NCBI RefSeq assembly: GCF_019668485.1
Contig: NZ_AP024619.1
Span: 2,783,757-2,847,756 of the forward strand
From: Gelria sp. Kuro-4
GTDB taxonomy: Bacteria; Bacillota; DTU030; DUMP01
Length of the DNA: 64,000 bases
Reading direction: 5' to 3'
Below, one piece after another: positions 2,712-22,011 of the stretch. The notes under the pieces are model-generated. The model ran no database searches. It was not told the DNA's origin and saw only the letters and a list, made by a program, of their open reading frames with translations. Numbering within the stretch: the first letter of the stretch is position 1; each line of letters starts with the position of its first letter. The position numbers and the translations under genes were made by a program.

Positions 2712-3347
2712 TTACTCGCGCGGCCCTTCTTTTCCCTCTTCCTTTTGCTCCTCCTGCGCCTCGCCTGGAGCCACAGGCGGCGCGGCCGGGGCGGACCCGT
2801 CCGGCGCGGCCGGCTGGGATTCTTCCGGCCGCTCCTCCGCCTTCAGTTCCTGCGGCCGGGGTTGCTCCGCCGGCGAGGCCGGCGGCACCTGGGACGGTTC
2901 TGCCCGGGCGGGGAGGGTCGCCGTCTCCGCCACCACCTGCGTCCCGGCCCACTTGTCGCCCAGCCGCCGGCCCAGCGGATCGCCCAGGACCAAGAGCAGC
3001 TCCACCACCCCGAGGACCAAGCTCACGAAAGGCCCGATCACCCAGCCGAGAAGCGGCACAATGCCAATGAGGCCGCCCAGGGCCAAGGTAAGGTTGCGCT
3101 TGGCCGAAACCCTTAGGTCTACCGGGCCGCCGTCCACGCGCACCACCGTAAGCCTAAGAAGCTTCTTCCCAATGCTCCGCCCCTTGTACTCCGGGTTCTT
3201 GGTCAGCTCGTACATGATACCGTCCTTGGTTAGGGTGTAGACCCCGCCCGCCAGAAACCCAACTAAAGGTACCAGGGAAAGCACGCCCGCAACGATCCCA
3301 TCGATGAGGGCGGCGAGAAACCGGGAGACCAGGTCGGCTTTCGGCAT
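2712..3347 (-). CDS. RDD family membrane protein
   Basis: A protein of about 211 residues. The N-terminal 135 residues form an RDD-type domain: RFLAALIDGIV gives the first Arg-Asp signature and membrane helix, a middle segment holds GRSIGKKLLRLTVV, and two further hydrophobic segments follow (ALGGLIGIVPLLG and FVSLVLGVVELLLVL). Residues 150-211 are a proline-, glutamate- and alanine-rich low-complexity tail, probably cytoplasmic. RDD proteins are poorly characterised, some being linked to ion transport. Start could be TTG 3356 or ATG 3347; ATG is used here. The gene stands alone, with a hairpin after its stop. Confidence 0.8.
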   Translation of the reverse strand: MPKADLVSRFLAALIDGIVAGVLSLVPLVGFLAGGVYTLTKDGIMYELTKNPEYKGRSIGKKLLRLTVVRVDGGPVDLRVSAKRNLTLALGGLIGIVPLLGWVIGPFVSLVLGVVELLLVLGDPLGRRLGDKWAGTQVVAETATLPARAEPSQVPPASPAEQPRPQELKAEERPEESQPAAPDGSAPAAPPVAPGEAQEEQKEEGKEGPRE

Positions 3348-3452
3348 TCTCCTCAACCCCTTTTTCAGACATCTCCTGCCTCCACTCTATCACACCTTAA
3401 GTTACGCTCACAATCCTCAAATTTGTTGCTCCCGGTTTTCCGCTTTTGTCCT

Positions 3453-3681: not shown

Positions 3682-6600
3682 TTAAACCACTTTGGCCCCC
3701 TGCGCCCGTGCTGCAATCCGCCGACGGATTTCCTCCGGGATCAGCTCCGCCACCCGGGCGCTGGCCAGGCACATGTAGGTATCGGAGGCCCCATAGTACA
3801 CCAGCACCTCGTCCTCGTCCTCCAGGATCGCTTTGTCCGTTCCCGGTACGGCCCCGCAGGTGAACACCACGTTCGGCACCCAGGAGCGCCCGCGCTCGCC
3901 CACCTCCAATTCCGTCTCCGGCGAGAGGATGGGGTTAGGGGAGCGGTAGAGCAGGCGGCTGGGATCCCTGAGGTCCACCAGGATCACGCCCAGCCGGTAG
4001 ACCATGGTGTTGCTCACCCCGTGGTAAATGAGGAGCCAGCCGTACTTCGTCTTGATGGGCTGGGAGCCGGAGCCGATCTTGAGCGAATCCCACATGAGAC
4101 CCGAGCGCGGACCGATGATGATCTTGTGGCTCTGCTTGGGCCAGGGAAAACGCAGGGTGTCTGAGTACGACACCCAGATGCTGGGCTCCACCCGGTGGTA
4201 CATCACCCACTTGCCGCCGATCTTCTCCGGAAAGAGGATCGCGTCTTTGTCCCAGAGGCCCGGGAAGGCGAGCCCGAGGCGCTTCCAGCGGTCGAAGCGG
4301 TGCGCCAGGAAATCCTCTACGCTGATGGTGGCCCCCGCCACCTGCGCCACCACCCCGTCGTAGGCGGTGTAGATCATGTACAGCCGGCCGTCGATCTCCA
4401 CTACCCGGGGGTCTTCGCAGCCGCGGCTCTCCTCCGGCAGCGCCGGGCTGAAGATCGGTTCCGGCAGCCGTTCCATGAGCCGCGCGCGGTCAAAGACGGC
4501 CAGGCCGATACGGGAAACCTGGTCCTCACCGTAGGCCCGGTAAAGGAGATAAATCTTGCCTTCCAGGCGCACGGTGGCGGCGTTGAGCACGTAGCGGCTC
4601 TCCCAGGGGTGCCCGCCGATGGGCTTAAGGAGCGGGTTCTCGGAGGCACGCTTAAGCTCTCCCGCCGGCGGGAAGGCGCTGGCATCCTGTACCAGGACCA
4701 CCTCTTCCGCCGGGCGCGCTCCCAAGAGCACGTCGAGGAGGTCGCTCGCCTCGCGCCCCTCGCCGATGCGCTCGATAACCTCGGTCATGATGTCCTGGGG
4801 GCGAAAGCCCATCTCCTTGTAGATCTCTTCCAGCAGGTCGTGGTGGAACCAGTCGCGCTCTACGTGCAGCGACAGCGGCGTGGGCACGCCCTTGCCCCCG
4901 CGAAAGCTGTAGCTGGCCCAGGTCCAGGCCGAGCAGGGGATAAAGGTGCCGTCGTGCAGCGTCAGGCTGAGGCCGTAGCCCTCCGTCATGAGCTTGAGGA
5001 GCCGCGCGGCCTCCGGGCGGCCGGCGCGGGCCATGTTTTCGGCGAGAAGGTGCACGCGGGCGGCGAGGTCGCGCTGGTGCCAGTTCTGGAAGATGTTCGT
5101 GGCCGAGAAAACCTCGCGGCCGCGGTGCTTGATGACCGAGTTTACCAGCTTGGTGCCGAACTCCTTGCGCTCACGGGCGTAGAGCTGCCAGATAAAGGAG
5201 TAGTGCTCGGCCTCCACCAGGCTCTTGGCAATGTGGGTGAAGTAGCGCAGCTTGGGAAAGGCCCCGCCCAGGCCCTTGGGCAGGTTGCTCACCGTTACCC
5301 GCGCCGCCAGCCGATCCAGGTGGGAGATGTCGCGCAGCTCCCCGACGCCGGGGAAGGTCTCCTGAGTAAAGATGAGCGGTTTTATCTCCACCTCTTCCAG
5401 GCTGTCCGGGCGCAGGTTGTCCTCCAGCCACCAGAGCAGGCGGTCGGTGTACTCGCGCTCCTCGCTGATCCCTGCCAGGGTGAAGGCGTCGCGTACGTCC
5501 AGGTGGTCCAGCAGCTCGGCCGTACTCGCATAGCCCAGGCGAATGAGCAGGTTCGGCGGCGGGAACTCCGTGAGCAGCCGGTGCAGCATCTCATCCTTTA
5601 CCGCCAGGATGCTCTGGTGGGGCACCAGGCTGAAAATCTCTCTGACCACCGCGTCCGTTCCCTCGGGCGTGGTCAGGTCGCCCGGGAAAAGGGCGTCCAC
5701 GGCCTGCTCCAGTTCAGTCATGAAGTGCTCCACCCCGGCCCCCACCTCCGCCGGCGAAAGCTCCGGCCCAAGGCCCAAGGCATCGTGCACAAAGCGGTGG
5801 AAGGCGGCGCTGTAGCGCTCCTGCAGGCGTCGGAACACGGCGCCCGTCCGCACCGGAATGCCGCCCAGGCCCTTGAGCTCCTTCGGCAGCGTGAGCGGCA
5901 CACCGGGGATAAACTCCAGGTAATCGAGCGGGGTGATCACCGGGCGTACCTCCGCCGCCTTCTCCACCCACGTCTTGACAAAGCCCCCCTTGAAACGGCG
6001 AAACTCCTTCACCTGGTTCTCCTTGAGGCGCGCCACCTGTTCGTAGGTGAGGTCCTCCAGGTCCAGGTTCTTCACCTGGCCCACCAGGGCGCGGAAATCG
6101 TGCATGCCGGCGATAAAGCCGGCCACGCGGCCGTCGTAGAGCACGCGCAGGGCCTCCAGGATGTCGTCGGACTTAAGGCTCTGGTCGAAGGCGTAGGCCT
6201 GCAGGAGGTAGTACACCACATGAGCCCACAGCTCCTCACTGAAGCGAAACTCCGCCTCGTGCCGGCTCCCTGCCAGGCGTTCCAGACCCTTGAACTCTTT
6301 CTCCGGAAACACCCGGGCGTAGAGCGCGCTGAAGTGATCGAAGCCGGTGGTGAAGCTGCCGATGAGATCCGGCAGGTGACAGGTAACCTCCAGGGGGCGG
6401 TCCCGCGCCTCCAGGCCGTAAACGTCCGGCCGCTTGAGGATAAGCTGGGACTTAAGCCAGTAATCCTCGTGACTCTTGATGCAGTCAAAGAGCGCCCGCG
6501 CCACCTGTTTAAAAACGTGCGCCCTTTTACTCGGCGCCGGCGGGCTGAGCTTGGCACCCAGGCTCACCTCGCAGATCTTTTTGTCCCACACCACCGCCTG

Positions 6601-7299
6601 CGCCAAGAGCCAGGGGTCCACACCGAAATCGCCGATGCCCCCGTACCACCAGTCCAGATTTGTGCAGTAATCCTCCACCAGGCCGCGTGAGATCCCGTAC
6701 ACCCCGCTCAGCGGGTCGCTGACGCGCAGGCCGAAAAGCGCCTCCAGTACGGGCGCCACGAAAAAGCTGCCGGTCGGGTCCTCAAAGTAGTGGCGGCGGA
6801 AGCTGGTTACCACCAAGTCGTAATCGTGCAGCAAAGGAAACAGCAGCCGCTCCAGCCAAGCAGGCTTGAACCCCCAGCCGCCGCGCTCCTTAAGGTCCGC
6901 CTCCAGAAGGATCACATCGGCGGCCAACTCCCGCGCCACCTCCAGGATGGCCCGGATGCTGAAGCCGCGCCCATTAACCCCCGCCGGCAGCAGGAACTCG
7001 CGGTGCGGCACATCCAGTTCCAGCCCCTGCACCGCCGCCAAGGCCTCAGCGCCGGCCGGGTCCCCGGCGCAGACAAAGAGCGGTTTCACATTGAGGAAGG
7101 GCCGCAGCCCCCGGGCGGCGGTGGCCAGCACCTCAGGCAGGGTGGCCTTTTCATTGTAAAAGGGCACGCCCACCACCACGTCCACCGTACCGACATCCCG
7201 CACCTGGCTCAAGGCGGCCTCCAGCGTGCCCTGGAACAGGTCTTCGCGCGCACGCAGCTCCTTTATGTTCAGATGAACCCCTCCCAAATCGGACAGCAT
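3682..7299 (-). CDS. Glycosyltransferase-GH130 phosphorylase fusion protein
   Basis: A protein of about 1205 residues. Residues 35-300 look like a GT-A glycosyltransferase of the glucosyl-phosphoglycerate/mannosylglycerate synthase type (VVGVPFYNEKATLPEV, then EADL as the metal-binding site, then DPLSGVYGISR). Residues 300-840 are helical and unassigned. Residues 850-1205 match GH130 mannoside phosphorylases: YLLYRAYGEDQVSRIGLA, the catalytic-Asp segment GCEDPRV, then YTAYDG, and a WDKDA segment. GH130 enzymes phosphorolyse or hydrolyse beta-mannosides; the other half would build a glycoside, so a role in compatible-solute or storage-glycan turnover is inferred. ATG 7299 has a weak ribosome site; CTG near 7272 sits behind GGGAGGGG. 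A longer frame opens at 7434. Confidence 0.8.
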   Translation of the reverse strand: MLSDLGGVHLNIKELRAREDLFQGTLEAALSQVRDVGTVDVVVGVPFYNEKATLPEVLATAARGLRPFLNVKPLFVCAGDPAGAEALAAVQGLELDVPHREFLLPAGVNGRGFSIRAILEVARELAADVILLEADLKERGGWGFKPAWLERLLFPLLHDYDLVVTSFRRHYFEDPTGSFFVAPVLEALFGLRVSDPLSGVYGISRGLVEDYCTNLDWWYGGIGDFGVDPWLLAQAVVWDKKICEVSLGAKLSPPAPSKRAHVFKQVARALFDCIKSHEDYWLKSQLILKRPDVYGLEARDRPLEVTCHLPDLIGSFTTGFDHFSALYARVFPEKEFKGLERLAGSRHEAEFRFSEELWAHVVYYLLQAYAFDQSLKSDDILEALRVLYDGRVAGFIAGMHDFRALVGQVKNLDLEDLTYEQVARLKENQVKEFRRFKGGFVKTWVEKAAEVRPVITPLDYLEFIPGVPLTLPKELKGLGGIPVRTGAVFRRLQERYSAAFHRFVHDALGLGPELSPAEVGAGVEHFMTELEQAVDALFPGDLTTPEGTDAVVREIFSLVPHQSILAVKDEMLHRLLTEFPPPNLLIRLGYASTAELLDHLDVRDAFTLAGISEEREYTDRLLWWLEDNLRPDSLEEVEIKPLIFTQETFPGVGELRDISHLDRLAARVTVSNLPKGLGGAFPKLRYFTHIAKSLVEAEHYSFIWQLYARERKEFGTKLVNSVIKHRGREVFSATNIFQNWHQRDLAARVHLLAENMARAGRPEAARLLKLMTEGYGLSLTLHDGTFIPCSAWTWASYSFRGGKGVPTPLSLHVERDWFHHDLLEEIYKEMGFRPQDIMTEVIERIGEGREASDLLDVLLGARPAEEVVLVQDASAFPPAGELKRASENPLLKPIGGHPWESRYVLNAATVRLEGKIYLLYRAYGEDQVSRIGLAVFDRARLMERLPEPIFSPALPEESRGCEDPRVVEIDGRLYMIYTAYDGVVAQVAGATISVEDFLAHRFDRWKRLGLAFPGLWDKDAILFPEKIGGKWVMYHRVEPSIWVSYSDTLRFPWPKQSHKIIIGPRSGLMWDSLKIGSGSQPIKTKYGWLLIYHGVSNTMVYRLGVILVDLRDPSRLLYRSPNPILSPETELEVGERGRSWVPNVVFTCGAVPGTDKAILEDEDEVLVYYGASDTYMCLASARVAELIPEEIRRRIAARAQGAKVV

Positions 7300-7437: not shown

Positions 7438-8154
7438 CTACTGGACGCTCCCCCCGCACGGGGCGGCAGCCCCCTCTTTCTTTCCCTCAACAAAGCGCAG
7501 CAGGTTCGCGCGGGCGTTGGCCATGTGCTGGGCAATGCGCCGCGCCGCCAGGTCGCTGTCGTGCACCTTCAGCGCCTCGAAAATGCCCAGGTGCTCCTTA
7601 ACCGAGTAATGGATGCGCCCGGGCACGCTAAGGGAGCGCAGGCGCGCCTGCTCCACATAGTCCAGCATGCTGCCCAAGGCGTAGCGCAGGGCCTTGCTCT
7701 TGGACGCCTCCAGGAGGATGCGGTGAAACTCCGTGTCCAGCACGGTAATCTGCTCCACATCGTCTTTCGCCACATAAAACTCCTGTAGCTCCACCACTTC
7801 CTGCAGCTTCTTCAGTTCCTCTTCCGTAATACGTCGCGCCGCCCAGCTCGCCTCCAAGCTCTCCAGGTGCTCCCGGATAACAAAGATATCCTCTACGTCC
7901 TGGATGGTAATTCCTTCCACCACCACTCCACGATTCGGCAGGTAGCGCACCAGGCCTTCCAGCTCCAGCTGGCGCAAGGCCTCCCGGATGGGGGTACGGC
8001 TGACGCCGTACTGCGCCGCCAGCTTTACCTCCACCAGGCCTTCACCGGGAGCCAAGCGTCCTTTCAGGATGTCATCCCGCAGCTGGCAAAAAATGCTGTT
8101 GCGCAACACCTCTCTTCCCGCCTGCACATTCTCGCCACGTCGCGGCACCGTCAT
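7438..8154 (-). CDS. GntR family regulator, FCD (FadR-like) subgroup
   Basis: A protein of 238 residues. The N-terminal winged helix spans about 15-85 with the typical YGVSRTPIREALRQLELEGLV recognition region. The C-terminal all-helical FCD domain (about 90-225) carries the metal/ligand residues seen in FadR-type proteins (D and H in LDTEFHRILLEAS, then SVKEHLGIFEAL and later H in RRIAQHM). It represses or activates carbon-metabolism genes in response to a small carboxylate. ATG 8154 follows GAGGAGAG. A good sigma-A promoter lies upstream at 8271-8299. Its targets are unknown; the glycoside fusion gene lies directly downstream in the same direction, so it is a candidate target. Confidence 0.9.
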   Translation of the reverse strand: MTVPRRGENVQAGREVLRNSIFCQLRDDILKGRLAPGEGLVEVKLAAQYGVSRTPIREALRQLELEGLVRYLPNRGVVVEGITIQDVEDIFVIREHLESLEASWAARRITEEELKKLQEVVELQEFYVAKDDVEQITVLDTEFHRILLEASKSKALRYALGSMLDYVEQARLRSLSVPGRIHYSVKEHLGIFEALKVHDSDLAARRIAQHMANARANLLRFVEGKKEGAAAPCGGSVQ

Positions 8155-8270
8155 TCTCTCCTCTCATCAAACCCGTTCTCCCAAGTGTCGCAGCGTGCTT
8201 ACTATCCCCCTCACGCTCTATCCCATATTCGCTACGGTCGACCGGGTTGTATCTACGTATACTCGTTTTT

Positions 8271-8299
8271 ATTGTATGCTATTTCTATAACGACCGCAA
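8271..8299 (-). promoter_or_regulatory. Sigma-A promoter of the GntR gene
   Basis: On the minus strand, TTGCGG (8299-8294), a 17-base spacer and TACAAT (8276-8271). It lies 120 bases upstream of the GntR start. A GTATAC core at 8257-8262, typical of FadR-type operators, sits just downstream and could allow autoregulation. Confidence 0.6.
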
Positions 8300-8301
8300 G
8301 G

Positions 8302-8331
8302 TAAAAAACGCACCCGCAGGTGGCGGGTGCA
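8302..8331 (-). terminator. Rho-independent terminator of the 56-residue gene
   Basis: GCACCCGC (8310-8317) pairs with GCGGGTGC (8323-8330) around a 5-base loop. On the minus strand it is followed by a run of six T residues (8308-8303). It lies 45 bases past the small gene stop at 8376 and just before the GntR promoter. Confidence 0.8.
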
Positions 8332-8375
8332 CAGGCCTTATAAGGAAGCCTACCTAGTTAACACTGGGAGATCCC

Positions 8376-8546
8376 CTAGTCCTCCAGGGGACGCGTGAGG
8401 AGATAATCGTTCAGGAACAAGTTGCGCAGCAGGGATAGCGTTGTGTCCGTTGCGGCTGGCGCCTTGGCTTCTTGTGGCCCCTGCTTCAGAACCCTTAAGT
8501 GTGCCCGTAAAAGTCCCGGTACCTCGACGGCCTTGCTTACGCTCAC
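8376..8546 (-). CDS. Small hypothetical protein, 56 residues, own promoter and terminator
   Basis: The product begins MSVSKAVEVPGLLRAHLRVL and ends LTRPLED. It has an amphipathic helical character and an acidic end, with no signal peptide. GTG at 8546 follows GGGGAGG at suitable spacing. A near-consensus promoter lies 60 bases upstream (8603-8631) and a clean terminator 45 bases downstream (8302-8331), so this is a complete monocistronic unit. I do not recognise the family. Confidence 0.65.
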   Translation of the reverse strand: MSVSKAVEVPGLLRAHLRVLKQGPQEAKAPAATDTTLSLLRNLFLNDYLLTRPLED

Positions 8547-8602
8547 CTCCGGACACCTCCCCGTGGTTTCTCAGCGCGATTGAATTTCTGTATCCGTGTA
8601 TT

Positions 8603-8631
8603 ATTGTATACATTGCCCGCGGGAAAGTCAA
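8603..8631 (-). promoter_or_regulatory. Sigma-A promoter of the 56-residue gene, with GTATAC palindrome
   Basis: Minus strand TTGACT (8631-8626), exactly 17 bases, TACAAT (8608-8603). A TGTATACA palindrome overlaps the -10 box (8606-8613) and resembles FadR-type GntR operators, so regulation by the adjacent GntR protein is possible. Confidence 0.7.
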
Positions 8632-8763
8632 CGCCTTCAGAAATAGTCGCAATTGCACGTCCTCACATAGCCTTGGGCAGTCGCCCGGCGGCCGCCCGCC
8701 CCCGGCTTCCTTCTTGTCGGCCCATGCCACCACCTGCCTTCTGTTCGCGCACGCCAGGCCTAC

Positions 8764-8823
8764 CTACGGGCGAACTCCAAAGCAGCGCCAATAGGCCGTA
8801 AGCCAACGCCACAGGTAACCCAT
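8764..8823 (-). CDS. Very short ORF (19 residues), aromatic-rich, leader-like
   Basis: ATG at 8823 follows GGGGAGG and encodes MGYLWRWLTAYWRCFGVRP before TAG. The peptide holds three Trp and two Tyr residues. A promoter (8855-8883) lies 30 bases upstream. It could be a leader peptide, a tiny membrane peptide or a relic of a longer gene; the ribosome site and promoter are the only support. Confidence 0.35.
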   Translation of the reverse strand: MGYLWRWLTAYWRCFGVRP

Positions 8824-8854
8824 GCGATCAAGCCTCCCCTCTTGCTTATGCCTT

Positions 8855-8883
8855 ATTCTAACCACTGCAAAGGGAGCTTTCAA
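8855..8883 (-). promoter_or_regulatory. Sigma-A promoter, minus strand
   Basis: TTGAAA (8883-8878), 17-base spacer, TAGAAT (8860-8855) on the minus strand, 32 bases upstream of the 19-residue ORF. Together with the plus-strand TATAAT at 8971 it makes a divergent promoter region. Confidence 0.55.
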
Positions 8884-8947
8884 TACTTTCTGTAAGCTAT
8901 CCTCTCATATGAATGTTAGGTAGAATGCCGGAATAATATTTTTCCCC

Positions 8948-8976
8948 TGGTGGTTACGATCGGGGTATAGTATAAT
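8948..8976 (+). promoter_or_regulatory. Probable promoter of the helicase leader
   Basis: A consensus TATAAT (8971-8976) in an AT-rich pocket. The -35 region (TGGTGG, 8948-8953) is poor. Transcription from here would give a leader of about 350 bases before the helicase start. Confidence 0.4.
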
Positions 8977-8982
8977 GAGAAG

Positions 8983-9166
8983 AGAGTCGGAGGAGCTGTG
9001 GTGGTCGGCGCACGGGGAAACCCTTGGACGCGGCCGGCGCAGAGTCGCCGCCGCGGGGAACGTTCACTGGATCCGGCAAACTGGCCGCTGCTGCACAATG
9101 GTGCATACCGCAAGGTACGGAATCGATCAGTGTGGCGCCGGGAAGGTAACCGGCGCCTTTGATTTT
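8983..9166 (+). ncRNA. Structured leader/small RNA ending in a terminator-like hairpin
   Basis: Between the TATAAT at 8971 and the helicase there is GC-rich sequence with local hairpins: TGCAC/GTGCA, TACC-GCAA-GGTA, and a strong final stem GGCGCCGG (9134-9141) with CCGGCGCC (9150-9157) followed by TTTGATTTTG. The last is an intrinsic-terminator shape, so this could be an attenuated leader or an independent small RNA of about 180 bases. I compared it by eye with common riboswitch cores (cobalamin, c-di-GMP, T-box, fluoride) and with SRP, tmRNA and RNase P motifs and found no match. Confidence 0.45.
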
Positions 9167-9261
9167 GTCCAGCCCGGGTGGTGCCGGTCGACACTGCCTG
9201 CTCAGTCCCGCGCCTCTGGCCCGAAGCAAAAAGGAGAAAGAAGGAGGTCCAGCGTTTGTCC

Positions 9262-9288
9262 CCGAGCAGCTCAGAGGGCTAAAACCCC
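9262..9288 (+). other. Mini-ORF in the helicase leader
   Basis: AAGGAGG is followed, eight bases on, by a TTG-initiated frame of 8 sense codons ending TAA (about 9256-9282). It may act as a translated leader element; the evidence is the ribosome site only. Confidence 0.25.
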
Positions 9289-9336
9289 CTGTAACTGGAA
9301 ACCATTTACCGTGAATATTACAGTACATTAAGGAGA

Positions 9337-10764
9337 GTGAAAGCACTGACTACCTTTGACCAATTGGGATTGAGCCCAGCCGTGCTTGAGGCCGTAAGCA
9401 ACATGGGCTTTGAAGAAACCACGCCGATTCAGGCGGAAACCATTCCTTTGTCCCTGGCCGGTCGGGACGTTATCGGCCAAGCGCAGACCGGCACCGGCAA
9501 AACAGCGGCCTATGGGATTCCCCTGGTGGAACAGGTGGATCCGCAGCAGGGCCAAATTCAAGCCCTGGTGGTCACACCTACCCGGGAGCTGGCCATGCAG
9601 GTCGCCGAGGAGCTCAACCGGGTCGGGCAGTTCAAGCACGTGCGGGCGCTGCCGATTTACGGCGGCCAGGACATCAACCGTCAGATCCGGGCGCTGGCCA
9701 AAGGACAGCACATCGTGGTCGGCACCCCGGGACGCCTGCTGGACCACCTGCGGCGCCGGACGGTCCGCCTGGCCCACATTAAGGCCGTTGTTCTGGATGA
9801 AGCCGACGAAATGCTGAACATGGGTTTCATTGATGACATCAAGGCCATCCTGCGCGAGGTTCCGGCCGAGCATCAAACCATGCTCTTTTCCGCCACCATG
9901 CCCGAGCCGATTCGGAGCCTGGCCGAACAGTTCATGCACGACCCAGAGCTGATCGCCATTCGCCCGAAGGAACTAACCGTGCCGGCCATCGAGCAGCACT
10001 ACCTGGAGGTGCCGGAACGGCAGAAGTTCGACGTGCTCTGCCGCCTGCTCGATCTCGAGGCCCCGGACCTGGCCATCGTCTTTGGACGGACCAAGCGCCG
10101 GGTAAGCGAACTGGCCGAGGCCCTGGCTAAACGCGGCTATGCCACCGAAGGCATCCACGGTGATCTAACCCAGGCCCAGCGGGACAATGTAATGCGGCAG
10201 TTTCGCGAGCGAACCATTGAAGTCCTGGTGGCGACCGATGTGGCCGCCCGCGGGCTGGACGTAAGCGGCGTCACCCATGTCTTCAACTTCGACGTCCCGC
10301 AGGACCCGGAAGGTTACGTTCACCGCATCGGCCGCACCGGGCGGGCCGGAAAAGCGGGCGCGGCCATCACCTTCGTCACCCCGCGGGAAATGAACCAGCT
10401 GCGGCAGATCGAGCAGCTGATCAAACGCAAAATACCGCGCCGCCCCGTGCCCACGCTCACCGAGACCATCGAGGGTCAGAAGCGCCTCACGGTGGAAAAA
10501 CTCCTCGAAACCGTAGAGTCCGCCGACGTGGAGCGCTATAAGGCGGTGGCGGAAAACCTGCTCGAGGAAACCGATTCTGTGCTGCTCCTGGCCGCAGCGC
10601 TCAAGCTCCTCACCCGCGAGCCGACCACCACGCCGATCGAACTCAGCGTCGAAGCGCCGCCCCGCCGGCGGGTACGCCCCCGGGGCGGCAGCCGGCACGG
10701 GCAGGTGCGAGGTAAGACCGCACCGCACAAACGGAGTCACGGCGACACCCGGCACCGTCCTTAG
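9337..10764 (+). CDS. DEAD-box ATP-dependent RNA helicase (CshA/DeaD-like)
   Basis: A protein of 475 residues with every helicase motif in order: Q motif GFEETTPIQ (about 28), motif I AQTGTGKT (48), PTRELA (81), DEAD (151), SAT (183), [10 protein letters not shown] (297) and [10 protein letters not shown] (329). The C-terminus is basic and rich in Arg and Gly ([14 protein letters not shown]), suited to RNA binding. The family remodels RNA in ribosome assembly, mRNA decay and cold shock. GTG 9337 almost touches AAGGAG; CTG 9346, which aligns with the usual family N-terminus ([10 protein letters not shown]), has better spacing. The long structured leader suggests post-transcriptional control. 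A strong terminator follows. Confidence 0.95.
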
Positions 10765-10781
10765 ATCCGGAAAGGCAAAAA

Positions 10782-10828
10782 CAGGGGTGCACCTGGGCAA
10801 CCGCCCGGGCGCACCCCTGCTTTCTCTT
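10782..10828 (+). terminator. Rho-independent terminator of the helicase gene
   Basis: CAGGGGTGC (10782-10790) pairs with GCACCCCTG (10811-10819), extended by an inner CTGGGC/GCCCGGG pairing, then CTTTCTCTT. It starts 17 bases after the helicase stop. Confidence 0.85.
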
Positions 10829-11024
10829 GCCCGCGTCGTTCCGGAGCCCTTTCGCCCCGTTGAAGAACTATTCAACCCTTTCGACCCAGGAAAAGCTCGC
10901 ACAGCGCGCCTGTTGCGCGCCGGCGAAGCTGCCTTATCATCAGCAACGAACTGGGTTTCGTACCGCTGCACCCCCCTCCTCTGAACAGGCATGCTTTCCA
11001 CCTGATACAAATCCACGAGCCACC
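10829..11024. other. Gene-free stretch at the trailer end of the CRISPR array
   Basis: No supported gene. Given array orientation it is the distal (trailer) side. I could not find a further convincing repeat here, although a heavily decayed unit cannot be excluded. Confidence 0.5.
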
Positions 11025-11321
11025 GTTTCCATTCCTCGTAGGTAGGCTCACAACCCCTTCCGGGACCGCCTGCTGCACCACGCTCTTTGGTTTCCATCCC
11101 TCGCAGGTAGGCTCAGGACCCGTTGTGCCCCCAGGCCCATACGGTGCCGTCAGACTTATTTCCATCCCTCGTAGGTAGGCTCAGAACCATGTTTGCCCCT
11201 TCGCTCCTTGTTGATGCCTTGTCGTTTCCATTCCTTGTAGGTAGGCTCAGAATACGACCTCCGCATCTCCAGCCGCGCCCGGACGGACGCGGTTTCCATT
11301 CCTTGTAGGTAGGCTCAGAAC
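11025..11321 (-). CRISPR. CRISPR array, five 30-bp repeats, four spacers
   Basis: Repeats lie at 11025-11054, 11090-11119, 11158-11187, 11224-11253 and 11292-11321; on the plus strand each begins GTTTCCAT and ends near GGCTCAGAAC. Spacers are 35, 38, 36 and 38 bases. The reverse complement (GTTCTGAGCCTACCT... ending GGAATGGAAAC) has the ATTGAAAC-like 3' end usual for clostridial type I/III repeats, so transcription is leftward. Consistent with that, the left repeats are degenerate (CACAAC end in the first, Gly-rich changes in the second, ATTTCC start in the third) while the two right repeats are nearly identical. No cas1 or cas2 is adjacent; a cas6 remnant lies on the leader side. Confidence 0.95.
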
Positions 11322-11376
11322 CGTCGCGGGGCTGAAAATACTGGCCTTTTCCTTACGCCTTCTTGGCTCTTTTGAG
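11322..11376 (-). promoter_or_regulatory. Probable CRISPR leader
   Basis: Short sequence between the best-conserved repeat and the cas6 remnant, on the leader side by repeat orientation. No clear promoter was found, and the leader may be truncated. Confidence 0.35.
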
Positions 11377-11673
11377 TCAGTCTGCTTGGGAAAAGGCCGT
11401 GACTCCGGTGTTTGTGCTGGTGTCGATCTCCCCGGTTCTTGACACTACTGAGGATCGACGACAATGGCTAAATCGGCTCCAGCATCCAAAGCCCTGGCTG
11501 TTCTTGGCGCCAATACCGCAATCGAGTGCCACCTGCAGCATAGCGGGGTCACCTTCAAATACATATTGTCCCAGCCAGCCTTTGACCACGGTATCTTTGA
11601 AGTAAAGCACCTTTTGATCGCTGCTTCGCACCCGGACGGACTTGAGGGCGATGCTTTCGGTAGTCCACTGAGC
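11377..11673 (-). pseudogene. cas6: Remnant of cas6 CRISPR endoribonuclease (C-terminal part)
   Basis: The minus-strand frame reads KVLYFKDTVVKGWLGQYV, then FEGDPAMLQVALDC and GIGAKNSQGFGCW. The last is the Cas6 glycine-rich loop near the C-terminus that contacts the repeat RNA, and the preceding stretch also fits the family. The frame is closed by TAG at 11676-11674, so the N-terminal half is missing, and the tail after GFGCW is unusually long. It lies 55 bases from the CRISPR array on the leader side, as in many clostridial loci. Processing of this array, if it is expressed, would need a Cas6 from elsewhere. Confidence 0.75.
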
Positions 11674-11773: not shown

Positions 11774-11985
11774 AGGCGGCGGTGCGCTTGAGGCCTTCTT
11801 CCAGCGTTACTTAGGGGCGCCAGCGCAGTTCCCGGACGATCTTTCCAGCATTGAGGAGGCTGGAGCACAGGTCGCCCGGCCGGGCTGGGCCGTAGGTTGC
11901 CGTCGGGTGCTCCACCGCTGCCGCATCCGCTATATCCACCTGGTAGAGCGGGACACCTGTCGGCAGGTTCTAATAATGCTTCCCC
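11774..11985 (-). pseudogene. Eroded, internally deleted copy of the epimerase gene
   Basis: Bases 11774-11900 are closely similar to 14057-14190, the C-terminal end of the intact epimerase. Bases 11910-11980 resemble 14820-14885 from the N-terminal part of the same gene. The middle is deleted and no frame is kept. The distal end overlaps the last codons of the minus-strand gene starting at 13892. Confidence 0.75.
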
Positions 11986-13892
11986 AACTCCCTTCGAACT
12001 TTGTGAATACGGATGGCTGCAGGGGACACTCCACCGATTAGGCCGAAGACACGATCTTCCAGTTTGCCTAATAGCGAGTCAACAACCTGTCCCCCCATTG
12101 TACCTTTCAGCAGTGGCCCTAAGAAAGTGCTCACTCCCGGAAGACAAAGCCCGGTTGCCGTCAGCGCCAAATCTAATCCCAGCCCCACGAGATCCACTAC
12201 ATCTGCCATCCGCCCCCATGGAGATGTCCGCCACTTTGCTACCTCTTGGTTATACCGCTCGATCCGGTGCTTCAGCTCCGTAGCCGAATCCGGAGTCGCA
12301 CATCCATTGAGGATGTCAGTGATAATCGACCGGATTCTACGTGCCTCTGTAGAGTCAAGCACTTCCAAGTACTCTCGCAGTGGAACGTGGCTGGGTCGGG
12401 CAATGTGAAGTTCTCGTAAGACCAGCTGCAGTTCTCCTACGTCTGGGGTTAGAGGGTTCTTATCCGGGCCGGCTTGAAGGTGGGCAATAAGCCGCAGAAT
12501 CGGTTCATTGATTACATTAAGTGGTGCATAGACGGCCCCTAAAGCACGCGCTACAGCCATATTCATGCTGTAGCCATAAGCTTCAAGGCTCAGGCTGTCT
12601 TTCATCTGGCGAATCTGGTGCTTCGGCTCATTAAGGCCCTTCACCATGAGTTCAACAAATGATTCTATGGCTCCACCAACTGCTAACGTCCCTGCTGCCG
12701 TGTGGCCCCTGTCTAAGAACCACCCCTCACCCGCTTCGGCCACGGTCAGATGCAGATCAAGCATTTTCGGGGCCACCTCAGCAGCAAATTCGAGAGCAGG
12801 ATCCGCGTCCGCGCACTCAGACAACCCGCGCCGTACCACCTGATACAGTTCCGCCGCTGTGCCGGGGTCTTGCCGAAACCGCTTCCAGAACGGGAACTGC
12901 TTGGCCAGGGTGAGCACCGTCAAGCCATCCAGTTCGCGCGGCATCAGCGCCCGGCCCTCTGCGGCCTCCAGGATTTTCAGTACTGTATGCGCATTGTATT
13001 GGTGAAGCGGGGCATGAAACAGAGGAACTACCCTGCCTGTGCGTGCGAGTTCTACTATGAGGTCTACATCCAGTCCAAGTTTTCTCTTCTGTGACCAAAC
13101 TTCACCGTCCTGCTCTACAGGCAAGTAAACAGTCTCGTAAAGCGCCAATAAAGTCTCCAATGTCTCTTCATTGTACCCTAGCCCGGGGTAAACCGCTCCG
13201 CCAGATCGGAAATGGCGGCCAAGAAATGTCTGATAACCCAAATTTGCTTCGATCAACTCAGGCAGATAGTCACAGAACCGTTCCTCGTCTGCGCGGGCAA
13301 GCTGCTTTATCTTCTCATCGCCGTAAAGCGCTGGATCAAACCGGCTGGTAGCAAGAAGATGCTCCGGTCGCTTGTTAAAACGAGCAGCAGCTGGACTACG
13401 TGTGAAGTCGTGGACGGTGAACGTCACCCCCGGCCCGAAGAGCTCGGCCAGAAGCCGTTTGGCATGTGCCACAAGTTCCTGTGTAGCGATACCACTCTCA
13501 TCGCCCACATAAACATCCACTACTCCGCCGGCAACTGTGACGGCATCAACATGCACACAGCCTGGAATACAGTTCTTAAGACACAGTACCAGGTCGGTTT
13601 TGTTGGGCGGCCAAAACACACCGGAACGTCTGAGCTCAGGTGACAGCTGATACGGTGGTAAGGCACTGCCCGGGCCTTCTTCGTAAGGTTTGACCTCCAC
13701 CAAGGTCGTTACAGGGCGGCGTTCCTCTAGAACTTGGCGTGCTTGGGTAAGAAGCTCCAGGGTCGATGCACCACCCTCTCCCCCTACAAACACAGTTACT
13801 TTGTTCTGTCCGTTGTCAATGGAGTTTATCCTTTTAACTCCCGGTACACGGAAGAGAACCGCTCGCTCCAGCATGAAACGAACCAGGCTCAC
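11970..13892 (-). CDS. Hypothetical protein with two tandem baseplate-J-like modules
   Basis: A protein of about 640 residues that I do not recognise as a whole. Residues 16-70 (VPGVKRINSIDNGQNKVTVF, then LLTQARQVLEERRPV, TTLVEV) and 110-165 (IPGCVHVDAVTVAGGVVDVYV, then AKRLLAELFGPGVTFTV) are two copies of one module. The module resembles the C-terminal alpha/beta repeat of phage/contractile-injection baseplate J proteins. Residues 170-560 are helical, and a Gly/Leu-rich segment near 590 (LGLDLALTATGLCLPGV) could insert in a membrane. GTG 13892 follows GAGGTGG; GTG 13904 is also possible. No tail or sheath genes are nearby, and decayed epimerase copies flank it, suggesting inserted DNA. Confidence 0.55.
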   Translation of the reverse strand: MSLVRFMLERAVLFRVPGVKRINSIDNGQNKVTVFVGGEGGASTLELLTQARQVLEERRPVTTLVEVKPYEEGPGSALPPYQLSPELRRSGVFWPPNKTDLVLCLKNCIPGCVHVDAVTVAGGVVDVYVGDESGIATQELVAHAKRLLAELFGPGVTFTVHDFTRSPAAARFNKRPEHLLATSRFDPALYGDEKIKQLARADEERFCDYLPELIEANLGYQTFLGRHFRSGGAVYPGLGYNEETLETLLALYETVYLPVEQDGEVWSQKRKLGLDVDLIVELARTGRVVPLFHAPLHQYNAHTVLKILEAAEGRALMPRELDGLTVLTLAKQFPFWKRFRQDPGTAAELYQVVRRGLSECADADPALEFAAEVAPKMLDLHLTVAEAGEGWFLDRGHTAAGTLAVGGAIESFVELMVKGLNEPKHQIRQMKDSLSLEAYGYSMNMAVARALGAVYAPLNVINEPILRLIAHLQAGPDKNPLTPDVGELQLVLRELHIARPSHVPLREYLEVLDSTEARRIRSIITDILNGCATPDSATELKHRIERYNQEVAKWRTSPWGRMADVVDLVGLGLDLALTATGLCLPGVSTFLGPLLKGTMGGQVVDSLLGKLEDRVFGLIGGVSPAAIRIHKVRRELGKHY

Positions 13893-14016
13893 CGCGCAAC
13901 CCACCTCAAACCCGAAAGTAACGCCTGGGAGCTACCATTATACCGCACGCAGCGCTGCTAATAGGTGTATGGGTGTACCCGTCACCTGTAACGTTCCTCT
14001 GAAATTTTGAATGATG

Positions 14017-14994
14017 TCAAAGGCCGTCGGCGTTGCGGTTCCGGCGATCGGCGAACCAGGCGGCGGTGCGTTTAAGCCCTTCCTCCAGCGCTACTTGAGG
14101 GCGCCAGCCCAGCTCCCGGGCGATCTTTCCGGCATCGAGGAGGCTGGAGCGCAGGTCGCCCGGCCGAGGTGGGCCGTAGGTGGCCGCCGGCAGCGCCGGC
14201 TTCCTCCCCTGCTCCCGAAGAATTTCCGTCAGGGCAGAGCGCAGGCCCCGCTCCAGCTCATTCACGTCCGTACCCCGGCCCGTACCCACGTTATAAGCGC
14301 GGAAGCCCTCCCACTCACCCTCCAGGGCCAGCAGGTTGGCCCGGGCCACATCCTCCACGTAGACATAATCCCTTATGTACCTGCCGTCCCCGTTAATAAT
14401 GGGCGCCGCACCGGCCAAGAACCTCTCCAGGAAAATGGCCACCACCCCGGCCTCGCCGTGCGGGTCCTGCCGCGGGCCGTAGACGTTGCCGTAGCGCAGG
14501 GCCGCACAGCGCAGGCCGTGCTCGCGGGCAAAAAAGGCGAGGTACATTTCCCCGGCGAGCTTAGCTATGCCGTAGGGCGAGACCGGTGCCGCCGGGTGCT
14601 CCTCCGCCGCCGGTTCGAACACATCGCCGTAGAGCACCCCGCCGGACGAAGCAAAAACAAAAGCGCGTACGCCCTGCCGCACCGCCGCTTCCAGCACATT
14701 TAACAGCCCGAGCACGTTCGTCCGCGCATCCAGGCCCGGCTCCCGCACCGAGCGGCTCACCGAGATCTGCGCCGCCTCATGGATCACCGCCTCCGGTCGC
14801 GCCGACTCAAAGGCCTTCTCCACCGCGGCGGCGTCAGCCACATCCACCTGAAAGATCGGCACCCCCGCCGGCAGGTTCTCCTTCTTCCCGCCGGAGAGGT
14901 CATCCACCACCGCCACCTCATGCCCTGCCGCCAAACACGCCTCCACCACGTGCGAGCCGATGAACCCGGCACCGCCGGTTACCAATACGCGCAC
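14017..14994 (-). CDS. NAD-dependent nucleotide-sugar epimerase (UDP-glucose 4-epimerase-like)
   Basis: A 325-residue extended short-chain dehydrogenase. It has the N-terminal Rossmann motif GGAGFIGS (residues 7-14), DDLSGG for adenosine ribose binding, catalytic SSGG around 123-126 and YGIAK (Y about 147, K about 151), and the substrate-loop RYGNVYGPRQ. It probably interconverts UDP-glucose/galactose or the N-acetyl forms for the neighbouring polysaccharide pathway. GTG 14994 follows GGGAGAG. It is the last complete gene of the minus-strand polysaccharide series. Fragments related to its C-terminus occur on both sides (11774-11985 and 15137-15217). Confidence 0.88.
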   Translation of the reverse strand: MRVLVTGGAGFIGSHVVEACLAAGHEVAVVDDLSGGKKENLPAGVPIFQVDVADAAAVEKAFESARPEAVIHEAAQISVSRSVREPGLDARTNVLGLLNVLEAAVRQGVRAFVFASSGGVLYGDVFEPAAEEHPAAPVSPYGIAKLAGEMYLAFFAREHGLRCAALRYGNVYGPRQDPHGEAGVVAIFLERFLAGAAPIINGDGRYIRDYVYVEDVARANLLALEGEWEGFRAYNVGTGRGTDVNELERGLRSALTEILREQGRKPALPAATYGPPRPGDLRSSLLDAGKIARELGWRPQVALEEGLKRTAAWFADRRNRNADGL

Positions 14995-15136
14995 TCCACT
15001 CTCTCCCTTCGCGTTCCCGCAGCCATGGCACCGGGATTGGATAAGTTATCCAAGTTCAGTAATCCTGCACCTGATCAGATCTAACAAAATCCAGCTTCAT
15101 GCCCAAGGCTTTTGCAATTCACATCGCCGTATCTAC

Positions 15137-15217
15137 GCGTGGCACAAAACCTTCCTCCAGCGTCACCTGCGAGCACCAGCCCAGATCCCGCGCAATCTTG
15201 CCGGCATTGAGGGTCCT
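15137..15217 (-). pseudogene. Short remnant related to the epimerase C-terminus
   Basis: About 80 bases that parallel 14067-14145 (shared CCTTCCTCCAGCG, then GCCAGCCCAG-like and ATCTT.CCGGCAT segments), without an open frame. With 11774-11985 it makes three related copies within 3.5 kb. Confidence 0.6.
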
Positions 15218-15274
15218 TTATACTGATAAGGCAGCCCGCCGAGGCCGCCTTGCTGTATTTTCACCGCTCTACGA

Positions 15275-16639
15275 CTACGCCTTCATTGTCCCCCTGTTGT
15301 TTTGGAGTACGTGAATCGTCCCCCGCGTACCACGTGCCGCCTCAGGGGTAAGTACCACGCGCAGGGTTTGAAAGATAATCTGCAGATCCAGAAGCGGCGA
15401 GTAGTTCCGTATGTAGTACAGGTCGTACCGGAGCTTGTCCGCTGGGTCGGTATCGTACTTCCCCTGTACCTGCGCCAAGCCTGTGATCCCCGGCTTTACC
15501 TTAAGCCTGAACTTATACTCCGGTATCGTCTCGCAGAACTGCTCCACAAAGAACGGCCGTTCCGGCCGGGGACCCACAAAGCTCATATCTCCCTTGATAA
15601 CGTTGAAGATCTGCGGGAGCTCATCCAGCCGCGACGCGCGGAGGAATCTCCCTACTTTGGTGATCCGCGGGTCGTTTTCGCTGGCCAGGACCGGCCCGGT
15701 GAGCTTCTCCGCGTCCTGTACCATGGTTCGGAATTTCCACAGCTTGAAGGGTTTCCCATTTTGCCCGCTGCGCTTCTGTAAATAGAATATCGGGCCGGGT
15801 GAAGAAAACCGTACCGCTACCATGAGTACTGGAAAAAGCGGCAAGGCGAAAACCAAAGCCACAGCAGCCAGGCCCAAGTCCAGAAGGCGCTTCATCAGCT
15901 GCTGACCGCGTGTAAGTCCCAGTCCTTCCACTCGAAAAACCGTGAGGTCGTCAATCCGCTCCACATTCGCGTTATGTAGGAGAATCTCATACAGCTCCGG
16001 CAACAAGAATACCTCTTTGTTCCACTCTAGACAGGTGGCGATCAGGCGTTCCCTTTCCTCACGCGGAATAGACGAGTTGATACAGATGATGTCTGCCTCT
16101 GCCACAGCTTGCGCTGGAAACTCGCTCCCGCCTGCATCGTGGACAGCGCGTACATTATAGTGACGGCCCGTCAGTGAGCCCAGCTTCTCCGCCACCCTTA
16201 AGCCATCCCCATTCGCCCCTATCACAGCCACTGTCTTCGTCGTCTCTGCCCGGTCTATTACCGTCTGCCAGATAAGCCGCCACACCCCAAGAAGCACTAC
16301 CTGTAGAAAACCGGCAATGAAGAACACCGTACGCGGAAAGGCAAAACCACGGAGGAAGTACGTCAAGGCCATGGCCAGCACATTCAAGATAACGACCGAG
16401 AGACCCACACTATAGAGAGTCTCCAGTGGCCGTTTCCAACTACCCTCATAAAGCCCGAACAACCAAAAAAGGATGAGAAGAATAAGGCTGAGGTACGGTA
16501 CAAGTCTTAAGTATGGCGCTAAGTTTTCTACTGGAATGGCAGCGCCAAATCGTACCCTAAAGGCAACGTAAAAGCCAAGATTCATTAAGAAAACGTCAAG
16601 TATATACAGTAAGAGTTGGCCACCCCATGATCGGCGCAT
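15275..16639 (-). CDS. Undecaprenyl-phosphate sugar phosphotransferase (WcaJ/WbaP-like)
   Basis: A 454-residue polyprenol-phosphate hexose-1-phosphate transferase, which starts the polysaccharide repeat unit on undecaprenyl phosphate. Five hydrophobic segments occupy residues 5-125 and about 260-290. A Rossmann-like domain (TVAVIGANGDG, about 152) lies between. The catalytic C-terminal domain has KRLLDL, GPIFYLQKRSGQNGKPF, KFRTM, LRASRLDELPQ, a NVIKGDMSFVGPRPE motif and VKPGITGLAQV. ATG 16639 follows GGAGGAAGG. It lies downstream of the glycosyltransferases, as expected in such loci. Confidence 0.93.
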   Translation of the reverse strand: MRRSWGGQLLLYILDVFLMNLGFYVAFRVRFGAAIPVENLAPYLRLVPYLSLILLILFWLFGLYEGSWKRPLETLYSVGLSVVILNVLAMALTYFLRGFAFPRTVFFIAGFLQVVLLGVWRLIWQTVIDRAETTKTVAVIGANGDGLRVAEKLGSLTGRHYNVRAVHDAGGSEFPAQAVAEADIICINSSIPREERERLIATCLEWNKEVFLLPELYEILLHNANVERIDDLTVFRVEGLGLTRGQQLMKRLLDLGLAAVALVFALPLFPVLMVAVRFSSPGPIFYLQKRSGQNGKPFKLWKFRTMVQDAEKLTGPVLASENDPRITKVGRFLRASRLDELPQIFNVIKGDMSFVGPRPERPFFVEQFCETIPEYKFRLKVKPGITGLAQVQGKYDTDPADKLRYDLYYIRNYSPLLDLQIIFQTLRVVLTPEAARGTRGTIHVLQNNRGTMKA

Positions 16640-16850
16640 GGGACCTTCCTCCCCCGTCCTTGCATGCTCTGGTTACATCTTAGCGTGCAACTCTGCAAGA
16701 ACGAATTCTACATTTCCCGACGTGGTTCCTGCCCCATTTGGTTAGCTAGTCCTGCTAAACGAAGTCAAACCCCGGCTTGCCCTCTTGCCTGTTCCTAGAT
16801 TTACGAAGTACCCCTTAACATCAAAGCTGGAACGTTAAGTTCAACACCCC

Positions 16851-18113
16851 TCAGCAGCATTCCTTCCTTGTTCTTTCCCCCTTCTGGAGAACGTCCTTCA
16901 ACATTTCTACATAGCGGGTCACAGCTTTCTCTCGAGTAAAGTTCTCCAGGTAAGCTTTCCGAGCGTTGTCTCCGGCCCTTAATACTTCATCATGAGATGC
17001 TGCTAGGCGCTGAAGCAATTGGTGTGTCTCGTCAGATGTCGTGGCTACCCATCCGCAATCCCACTGACGCACGATCTCGGCTACTTCATTATTAGATGAG
17101 CCGATTGCTAGAATTGGCTTACCGGCGGCCAAAATGGGATATGTCTTTGAAGGAACCGCAAGGCCGGTCAGCTCAGGTTCTAAAGCCACTACACAAATGT
17201 CAGCTGCTGCCAGCATATCGTTAAGCACGTTTTCGGGTTGATATGGCAAGAAGATTACATTGGATAAGCCCAGTTTCTTCGCCGTAGCCTGAAGACTAGC
17301 CTTTTTTTCGCCACTGCCAACAAAAAGGAATTGTGTATCTCCTTGAGTTTTTGCAGCTGCTTCTAACAGATACTCCAGATTATGAGAAATGCCCATGTTG
17401 CCAGTGTATAGTACCACAAAACGGTCTCCCAGACCGTGGATTGTGCGGAAAGAATTAAGTCTTGGACGAGGACTGATATCTTGTGTTGACCAGTTGTGGA
17501 TGACCCTTATCTTTTCATTGGATACACACTTTTCCACTTGAAGGTATTCTCGCATCCGGTCCCCCAGCACTACAATTGCAGTAGCATTAGTAAAGATAAG
17601 CGAATTCATCCTGTCCCATAGACGGACGACCAAACCAGATCGCAGCCTTCCACACTTTACTAAGATGTCCGGATGCAGATCATGAACAACATAGACAAAC
17701 GGACAATGCAACTTGTGTTGTGCAAGCACCCCAAGTAGCCCAACAGATGGTGGATTCGTGAGGGTTACCACAGCGTCAAAATGTTCTCTTAAACTTAACA
17801 CCTGAATCTTTTTCCATGCTGAGAGCATAAACCCTAGGTACCCCTGTATGCGTTTCCTTATACTGGAGCGTCCCTTAACACCGCCCGTCCCCACACGGTA
17901 AACCGTGATCTCTTGTCTACCCTCAACTGGGGGTGCTTCTGGAGCATCATCTGTATAGCTGGGAAACCCACAAACCACGATAATCTCAAATCCTCTGTGG
18001 GCGAGTCCTTCACACAATGAGGCTAGTACCTGACCTGATGCTGCAGTATCGGGAGCAAAATACTGGTTGATAACTAGAAGTCGCTTGCCGTGGGCTTGTT
18101 GAGTGGCATGCAT
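16851..18113 (-). CDS. Glycosyltransferase family 4 (WbuB/fucosaminyl-transferase-like)
   Basis: A GT-B enzyme of 420 residues. The N-terminal half begins RLLVINQYFAPDTAASGQVL, typical of WbuB-like enzymes. The C-terminal half has FVVLYTGNMGISHNLEYLLEA and a GSGEKK stretch, with the E-x7-E acceptor region around ALEPELTGLAVPSKTYPILA. It transfers a sugar from a nucleotide donor to the lipid-linked chain at the inner face of the membrane. ATG 18113 lies 5 bases after the fcl stop; a longer frame would overlap that gene. Codon composition is more AT-rich than the rml genes. Confidence 0.88.
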   Translation of the reverse strand: MHATQQAHGKRLLVINQYFAPDTAASGQVLASLCEGLAHRGFEIIVVCGFPSYTDDAPEAPPVEGRQEITVYRVGTGGVKGRSSIRKRIQGYLGFMLSAWKKIQVLSLREHFDAVVTLTNPPSVGLLGVLAQHKLHCPFVYVVHDLHPDILVKCGRLRSGLVVRLWDRMNSLIFTNATAIVVLGDRMREYLQVEKCVSNEKIRVIHNWSTQDISPRPRLNSFRTIHGLGDRFVVLYTGNMGISHNLEYLLEAAAKTQGDTQFLFVGSGEKKASLQATAKKLGLSNVIFLPYQPENVLNDMLAAADICVVALEPELTGLAVPSKTYPILAAGKPILAIGSSNNEVAEIVRQWDCGWVATTSDETHQLLQRLAASHDEVLRAGDNARKAYLENFTREKAVTRYVEMLKDVLQKGERTRKECC

Positions 18114-18117
18114 TGGC

Positions 18118-19068
<951 letters not shown>

Positions 19069-19097
19069 CTACTACTTAAGCAATAGCAGTCCAGGCC

Positions 19098-20186
19098 TTA
19101 TTCAAACCCTCGCCCTGTAGAATCTAACGACGCAGTTACTGCCGCCTCCCAACAATGCCAGCCTGCAAATTTCTTCTTCAATATGGCTTTCCCTTCTCCC
19201 GGCGGGGTAAGCCCCAAAGCCTCCATATCTGCATCTACCATAATACGGACAAGTTCCTTAAACGTAACCTTAGGTTCCCAACCGAGTTTTTGTCGAGCCT
19301 TGCTTGGGTCAGCGAGCAAATGTTCCACCTCTGTGGGCCGGAAATAACGGGTATCGACTTTGACATATCTTTGCCAATCTAGCCCGACATATTCAAATGC
19401 CTCTTCTAGGAATTCGCGTACCCTATGAGCCTCCCCAGTGCCGATTACGTAGTCCTCGGGCTTTTCCTGCTGTAACATTAACCACATAGCCTCCACATAC
19501 TCCGGTGCATACCCCCAGTCCCTCTTGGCATCTAGGTTTCCAAGGTAAAGGTCCTTCTGTTTCCCTGCCAGAATCCTTGCCACAGCTCGAGTGATCTTTC
19601 TCGTAACGAACGTCTCGCCTCGACGTGGGCTCTCGTGATTGAATAAGATGCCATTACAGGCATAAAGACTGTATGCTTCCCGGTAGTTCACAGTCATCCA
19701 ATAGGCATACAACTTGGCAGCAGCATAAGGGCTGCGCGGGTAAAAAGGCGTGTTCTCGTTTTGAGGAGGCGGTGAAGCCCCAAATAACTCAGATGTGCTG
19801 GCTTGGTAAAATCGTGTCTTGATGCCACTTCGACGTACCGCTTCCAACAATCTAGTAGTTCCTAGCCCTGTCGTTTCTCCAGTATACACAGGCATATCAA
19901 AACTAACTGCAACATGACTTTGGGCTCCCAAGTTGTAAATCTCGTCCGGTTGGACGTTGTACACCAAATTCGAGATCTGTTCTAGATTAGTTAAATCTCC
20001 ATAGTATAGAAATAATTTGGCCCCCGGGTCATGAGGATCCTGGTATAGGTGGTCAATGCGGTCCGTATTGAAGGTGCTAGCCTTTCTTATAAGGCCGTGC
20101 ACCTCGTATCCCTTAGCCAACAAGAGCTCAGCCAGGTAAGAGCCATCCTGGCCAGTTATACCGGTGATGAGAGCTTTTTTACTCAT
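19098..20186 (-). CDS. gmd: GDP-mannose 4,6-dehydratase
   Basis: A 362-residue enzyme making GDP-4-keto-6-deoxy-D-mannose. [12 protein letters not shown] (9-20) binds NADP, and [11 protein letters not shown] is the Gmd-specific loop. TSELFG (about 125) and [10 protein letters not shown] (Y/K near 150/154) give the catalytic residues, and [15 protein letters not shown] is the Gmd signature. ATG 20186 lies 9 bases after AGGAGGG; in-frame starts at 20195 and 20240 are less likely. The last 20 residues are an unusual extension. Paired with fcl directly downstream. Confidence 0.95.
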
Positions 20187-22008: not shown

Positions 22009-22011
22009 GGG

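Follow-up and report, generated by a model that had tools for sequence, protein, structure and literature searches.

A three-module protein of anaerobic bacteria joins a glycosyltransferase-like domain with an eroding metal site to a conserved GH130 phosphorylase domain

Introduction

Why would one bacterial polypeptide carry a domain for making glycosides at one end and a domain for the phosphorolysis of mannosides at the other? The question is raised by a gene in a 64,000-nucleotide stretch of the genome of Gelria sp. Kuro-4 (contig NZ_AP024619.1; hereafter the window), where a first-pass annotation had read a single 1200-residue chain at 3682-7299, with one end resembling enzymes of glycosylglycerate-type compounds, the other resembling GH130 mannoside phosphorylases and 540 unassigned residues in between. 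From this pairing of a synthetic with a degradative activity, it had proposed a reversible glycoside store or a proofreading role. Single chains that combine a transferase with a phosphorylase are known already; within the literature that could be searched, this pair of families and the middle module are new, and our searches of open-licence papers found no earlier report of a GT-GH130 fusion.

Results

On the minus strand, a putative start ATG at 7299 opens a single chain of 1,205 residues (3682-7299, stop included); upstream of it, the frame has no stop as far as a TTG at 7434. The chain consists of three modules: 1) a glycosyltransferase (GT) module, residues 1 to about 405 (6085-7299, minus strand), delimited by its match to the GT78/GT81 fold and by stand-alone GT homologues with a matching tail; 2) a middle module, residues ~406-875 (4675-6084, minus strand), seen in the fusion only; and 3) a GH130 phosphorylase module, residues 880-1190 (3730-4662, minus strand), assigned from PF04041 and the PDB chains 7fip and 9fj8. 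A profile of residues 14-880 searched against one-per-species genomes yielded 137 relatives, and among the best 80, which were kept, GT, both middle segments and GH130 lie on one chain in 79 further ORFs; two other ORFs with this combination are truncated at contig ends. The carriers include cultured isolates (three Syntrophomonas strains or species, Thermosediminibacter litoriperuensis, Fervidicola ferrireducens and Syntrophaceticus schinkii), and since the same three-module fusion recurs in so many ORFs, mis-assembly was ruled out. The fusion of transferase-like and phosphorylase halves is thus confirmed as real and common to many anaerobes, and in the complete ORFs seen the three modules are never apart. 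Within the window's phylum, the middle profile matched 52 of the 398 sampled genomes, and as four of these matches represent only a short stand-alone GT, 48 genomes carry the fusion; beyond this phylum, the count is a minimum. One Pelotomaculum contig (L054) harbors two full-length copies (7971-11600 and 14044-17600, ~6 kb apart), and two copies also occur in several other genomes.

The survey for split homologues proposed in the first-pass annotation did recover both halves on their own. Stand-alone GT relatives of 412-437 residues were found in four genomes of the window's phylum (L148-L151, the L151 ORF being called longer), with two more, of 408 and 421 residues, in other genomes that also carry the fusion, while stand-alone GH130 proteins 56-57% identical to the C-terminal module of the fusion were found in a Chloroflexi genome. 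An apparent stand-alone GT in another genome (G399, L157) was left out of the count, as its sequence extends into masked N bases. The stand-alone GTs comprise the GT core together with the first 110-130 residues of what had seemed to be the middle region, thus reaching about residue 405, and together with the GH130 relatives they narrow the orphan middle to approximately residues 405-870. An orphan stretch is therefore present as first described, but at ~465 rather than 540 residues.

This middle module is conserved across the family and was not seen outside the fusion. Comparison with Pfam, PDB sequences, PDB folds and viral folds yielded nothing significant, and a model of residues 290-885 is mainly helical with fair confidence (pLDDT 87.7, pTM 0.72). 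Its most conserved motif in the family alignment is AWTWASYSF at residues 791-799 (4903-4929, minus strand), with the family form A-W-[TS]-W-A-S-[YF]-S. A likeness to Gag/capsid proteins (profile match E 0.034) disappeared with a larger alignment and was dropped.

The identity of the C-terminal half is borne out by a PF04041 match at residues 883-1187 (E 7e-54, 183 bits vs. a gathering score of 26), and its best PDB chains by sequence are the beta-1,2-mannobiose phosphorylase 7fip (4e-58) and the 1,2-beta-oligomannan phosphorylase 9fj8 (3e-56). Among 76 aligned fusions, N906, R921, E962, D963, K1018, R1036, H1093 and Y1101 are identical in all, with H1058, K1083 and D1173 kept in 74-75. E962-D963 (4411-4416, minus strand) forms the catalytic acid region, corresponding to E141/D142 of BT3780, with D963 as the invariant catalytic aspartate. 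Hydrolases of GH130 carry a pair of glutamates where the phosphorylases have basic phosphate-site residues; in the fusions, we take these basic residues, from the alignment and known structures rather than from a model, to be R1036 (76/76), H1093 (76/76) and K1083 (74/76), and glutamate occurs at none of these columns. K1018 (4246-4248, minus strand) aligns with K199 of BT3780, a lysine that marks GH130 enzymes acting on Man-beta-1,2-Man (PMC4599007). As judged from these residues, the C-terminal half is a GH130 phosphorylase of the beta-1,2-mannoside type, with a predicted active site that is fully kept across the family.

The fusion is the sole GH130 of the window's genome. In ten Pelotomaculum-type loci (L044, L048, L050, L054, L055, L059, L061, L064, L074 and L090), a second, stand-alone GH130 is found ~2.5 kb upstream of the fusion, adjoining a GT4 gene and a 760-800-residue GT4-glycosidase fusion, and in all ten, arginine replaces the beta-1,2 lysine. 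This substitution suggests a second, different linkage specificity in these operons.

In contrast to the ready recognition of the GH130 half, the GT part of the window protein passed no Pfam cut-off in the full-length scan; scanned alone, it matched only PF00535 (E 0.025), a family detected at E up to 1 in 57 of 78 members, with a best value of 4e-5. The family profile matched GT-A enzymes of the PDB at 8e-5, and the AlphaFold model is a confident GT-A fold (pLDDT 90.9, pTM 0.92) comprising a core at residues 28-312 and a helical tail that is also present on the stand-alone homologues. The closest PDB folds are mannosylglycerate synthase (MgS, GT78; E 5e-11, TM 0.70), which uses GDP-mannose, and glucosyl-3-phosphoglycerate synthase (GpgS, GT81), in keeping with the glycosylglycerate-type resemblance noted at first. 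The Pfam model for MgS (MGS_GT, PF21969) was matched neither by the window protein nor by any aligned family member; the stand-alone homologues come up to 4.8e-6 with it, just under the cut-off. These homologues resemble GpgS in sequence (4e-8), and their D-x-D plus histidine site is complete. As modeled, the N-terminal part thus folds as a retaining glycosyltransferase of the GT78/GT81 type. One stand-alone homologue (L158, 6129-7391) has an intact DAD and histidine and lies ~1.3 kb from a gene resembling mannose-1-phosphate guanylyltransferase, a placement that hints at GDP-mannose as the donor.

The metal site of this half tells a different story from that of the GH130 active site. In MgS, the metal is bound by D102 and H217, with D136 of GpgS holding Mg and H258 equivalent to H217 (PMC2581804). 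The window protein has E133-A134-D135 at the D-x-D position (6895-6903, minus strand), with D135 aligning with the metal aspartate, and S252 (6544-6546, minus strand) in place of the histidine, whereas the stand-alone homologues show D-[SA]-D with the histidine present (LGxKxH). Among 78 fusions, the aspartate is kept in 57 and absent in 21, and the histidine is kept in only 15 and absent in 63. In a tree of whole chains, the losses appear in steps: 1) a Chloroflexota-side clade, which also holds a few proteobacterial-type MAGs and two deep Clostridia members, retains both residues in 11 of its 12 members; 2) in the remaining Bacillota, the histidine is gone except in four scattered rows, which may be due to chance as histidine was accepted at any of four columns; and 3) in a fully supported 21-member clade of the Syntrophomonas type, the aspartate is also replaced, by N, H, K or Q. 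These alignments indicate that the GT metal site decays stepwise across the family while the GH130 half stays intact, and that in the window's lineage, with the aspartate kept and the histidine lost, transfer activity has probably been weakened, changed or abolished. The first-pass annotation would have regarded it as telling against its reading if most homologues lacked catalytic residues in one half; this is largely what the GT half displays, but not the GH130 half. The GT fold is nevertheless kept everywhere, with G110, G112, R116, D161, G199, W230 and C243 conserved, and given these fold-defining residues, we surmise that the domain is kept for something.

Gene neighborhoods were compared in 81 loci, the window included; as many contigs end early, all counts are minima. 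At least 33 of the loci have a mannose-1-phosphate guanylyltransferase (ManC) nearby and at least 31 a phosphomannomutase. A GT4 transferase and/or a 340-residue putative glycosidase, distantly like (alpha/alpha)6 enzymes of GH88/GH76, accompanies at least 57, and at least 8 have a GH5-like protein, so named by resemblance to a Thermoanaerobacter cluster and without a Pfam match. In that genus, the stand-alone phosphorylases Teth514_1788/1789 reside in a GDP-mannose gene cluster (PMC4264767). The GDP-mannose genes do not adjoin the fusion in the window's genome; GT4, the 340-residue protein, ManC and phosphomannomutase lie together at 765-773 kb of contig C1, ~2 Mb away. The fusion is instead flanked directly upstream by a GntR/FCD-family regulator (7438-8154, minus strand), an order kept in close relatives, and downstream by an RDD-family membrane protein (2712-3356, minus strand), found in the same place in most of them. 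ManC and phosphomannomutase of this genome also serve exopolysaccharide synthesis. An exopolysaccharide cluster at 14017-28652 of the window, with a GDP-mannose 4,6-dehydratase (19098-20240), a GDP-fucose synthase-like epimerase, dTDP-rhamnose-type genes and several glycosyltransferases, represents another consumer of GDP-mannose.

Discussion

The reading we favor, held with middling confidence and drawn from architecture, folds, conserved residues and gene neighborhood, is that the fusion is a cytosolic enzyme that would build and recycle a beta-1,2-mannoside via mannose-1-phosphate (Man-1-P), with the GT half as an ancestral primer-maker. The step assigned to the GH130 module is (beta-1,2-Man)n+1 + Pi <-> (beta-1,2-Man)n + alpha-Man-1-P, and the balance between Pi and Man-1-P would set whether the chain is lengthened or shortened. 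As this phosphorolysis is reversible, the GH130 half alone could do either; the contrast initially drawn between a synthetic and a degradative half is thus too sharp, since a GH130 can synthesize from Man-1-P. Man-1-P in turn would be linked to GDP-mannose by the guanylyltransferase and phosphomannomutase, the genes for which are found near the fusion or in another part of the genome. In the window's genome, the distance of these genes from the fusion and their use in exopolysaccharide synthesis count against our reading. A reversible glycoside store, as first proposed, agrees with what GH130 enzymes catalyze, with the presence of the beta-1,2-marking lysine and with the GDP-mannose genes of the neighborhood, the store itself remaining putative.

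We surmise that the N-terminal module, derived from a retaining GT78/GT81-type ancestor, once drew on an NDP-sugar to provide an alpha-glycosyl primer or acceptor, probably an alpha-mannosyl one. Because its structural kin are retaining enzymes that place one alpha-sugar onto a small acceptor, a primer-maker seems more likely than a polymerase. The middle module would join the two active sites and may hold the chain. In basal members, GT and GH130 could act one after the other; the GT half of the window's lineage may serve as a binding or regulatory domain, and the incomplete metal site of most members makes an obligatory two-step synthesis less likely in crown Bacillota.

Compared with stand-alone GH130 phosphorylases (Teth514_1789, 7fip, 9fj8), the fusion shares sequence (~1e-57 against beta-1,2-mannobiose and beta-1,2-oligomannan phosphorylases), the catalytic aspartate, the basic residues, the beta-1,2 lysine, an occurrence in Clostridia and the tie to GDP-mannose genes. 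However, those enzymes are ~300 residues long whereas the GH130 of the fusion ends a 1,205-residue chain, and its score with the NCBIfam model for beta-1,2-mannobiose phosphorylase (NF052550) is 249 bits, under the curated cut-off of 450. With MgS and GpgS, it has in common the GT-A fold, the metal aspartate D135, a GKG/GRG loop and a GxD motif, but fold alignment gives only 16-22% identity, the metal histidine is missing, EAD stands for DxD and two extra modules are present. Another relevant comparison is with the GT108 enzymes of Leishmania, which turn over mannogen (PMC8950772) and in which a GH130-like propeller carries out both transfer and phosphorolysis on a reversible beta-1,2-mannan store; there, a single domain does both, whereas the bacterial fusion has two separate domains and a GH130 proper. 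By analogy, we tentatively entertain the fusion as a bacterial counterpart of mannogen metabolism, mainly of syntrophic and thermophilic anaerobes, in which a chain once primed by the protein would now be extended and recycled as intracellular beta-1,2-mannan, with the priming transferase decaying while the phosphorylase and middle domain stay under selection. If the GH130 half does act on such a mannan, some syntrophic anaerobes would possess a Leishmania-like carbohydrate reserve that saves energy, as phosphorolysis delivers Man-1-P without ATP.

Against our preferred reading of building and recycling stands the possibility, plausible enough to keep in view but doubtful, that the protein is a salvage phosphorylase, converting beta-1,2-mannosides that are imported or set free within the cell to Man-1-P for GDP-mannose, with the GT half as a relic that only binds sugar or nucleotide. 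Such a role has been proposed for Teth514_1788/1789 (PMC4264767) and would agree with a GH130 site that is intact in all fusions vs. a GT metal site eroded stepwise, completely so in the 21-member clade. A pure relic, however, should be lost or truncated somewhere, yet the modules were never seen apart in complete ORFs, the GT fold and its seven conserved residues persist, and 11 of the 12 members of the Chloroflexota-side clade still have the aspartate and histidine.

Less is to be said for a small capped solute, an unlikely scheme in which a glycerate-like compound carrying alpha-mannose (or glucose) would be made by the GT, and a single beta-1,2-mannose added or removed by GH130: the GT fold is that of compatible-solute enzymes and GH130 relatives such as Teth514_1789 act on a disaccharide (PMC4264767), but no dedicated phosphatase or solute gene was apparent next to the fusion. 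Cyclic beta-1,2-glucan synthase (Cgs) likewise has a glycosyltransferase at the N-terminus and an inverting phosphorylase at the C-terminus of a single chain, thereby providing the early proofreading proposal with a precedent; it is, however, a membrane protein with GT84 and GH94 domains making a glucan, and Pfam found neither domain in the window protein, only GH130. The fusion, a mannoside-type protein of unrelated domains, belongs neither to this family nor to GT108. A chain-length-controlled synthase on the Cgs model, with the GT polymerizing and GH130 trimming by phosphorolysis much as the C-terminal GH94 sets length in Cgs (PMC4336185, PMC2995898), is improbable, given that the nearest GT kin are retaining, single-transfer alpha-glycosyltransferases that are neither processive nor inverting, that GH130 cuts beta-mannosides and hence not the bond the GT half would make, and that most members have an eroded GT site.

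Taken as a whole, the earlier interpretation of this locus is partly supported. The family offers a natural gradient of proteins in which the GT metal site disappears and the domain stays joined to a phosphorylase that apparently works, so that the reason for retaining a catalytically weakened GT domain can be tested directly; it also adds a conserved ~465-residue domain without a known relative. Two other features of the window were recorded, both on the minus strand. At 11970-13904, a 644-residue protein gives a weak Baseplate_J match (E 1e-4). At 30425-35321, a SIR2-like protein (639 residues) lies beside an SMC-like ATPase (1,065 residues), with overlapping ORFs and weak PADLOC matches to SIR2 effectors and LmuB/PtuA-type ATPases; this is perhaps an undescribed defense pair.
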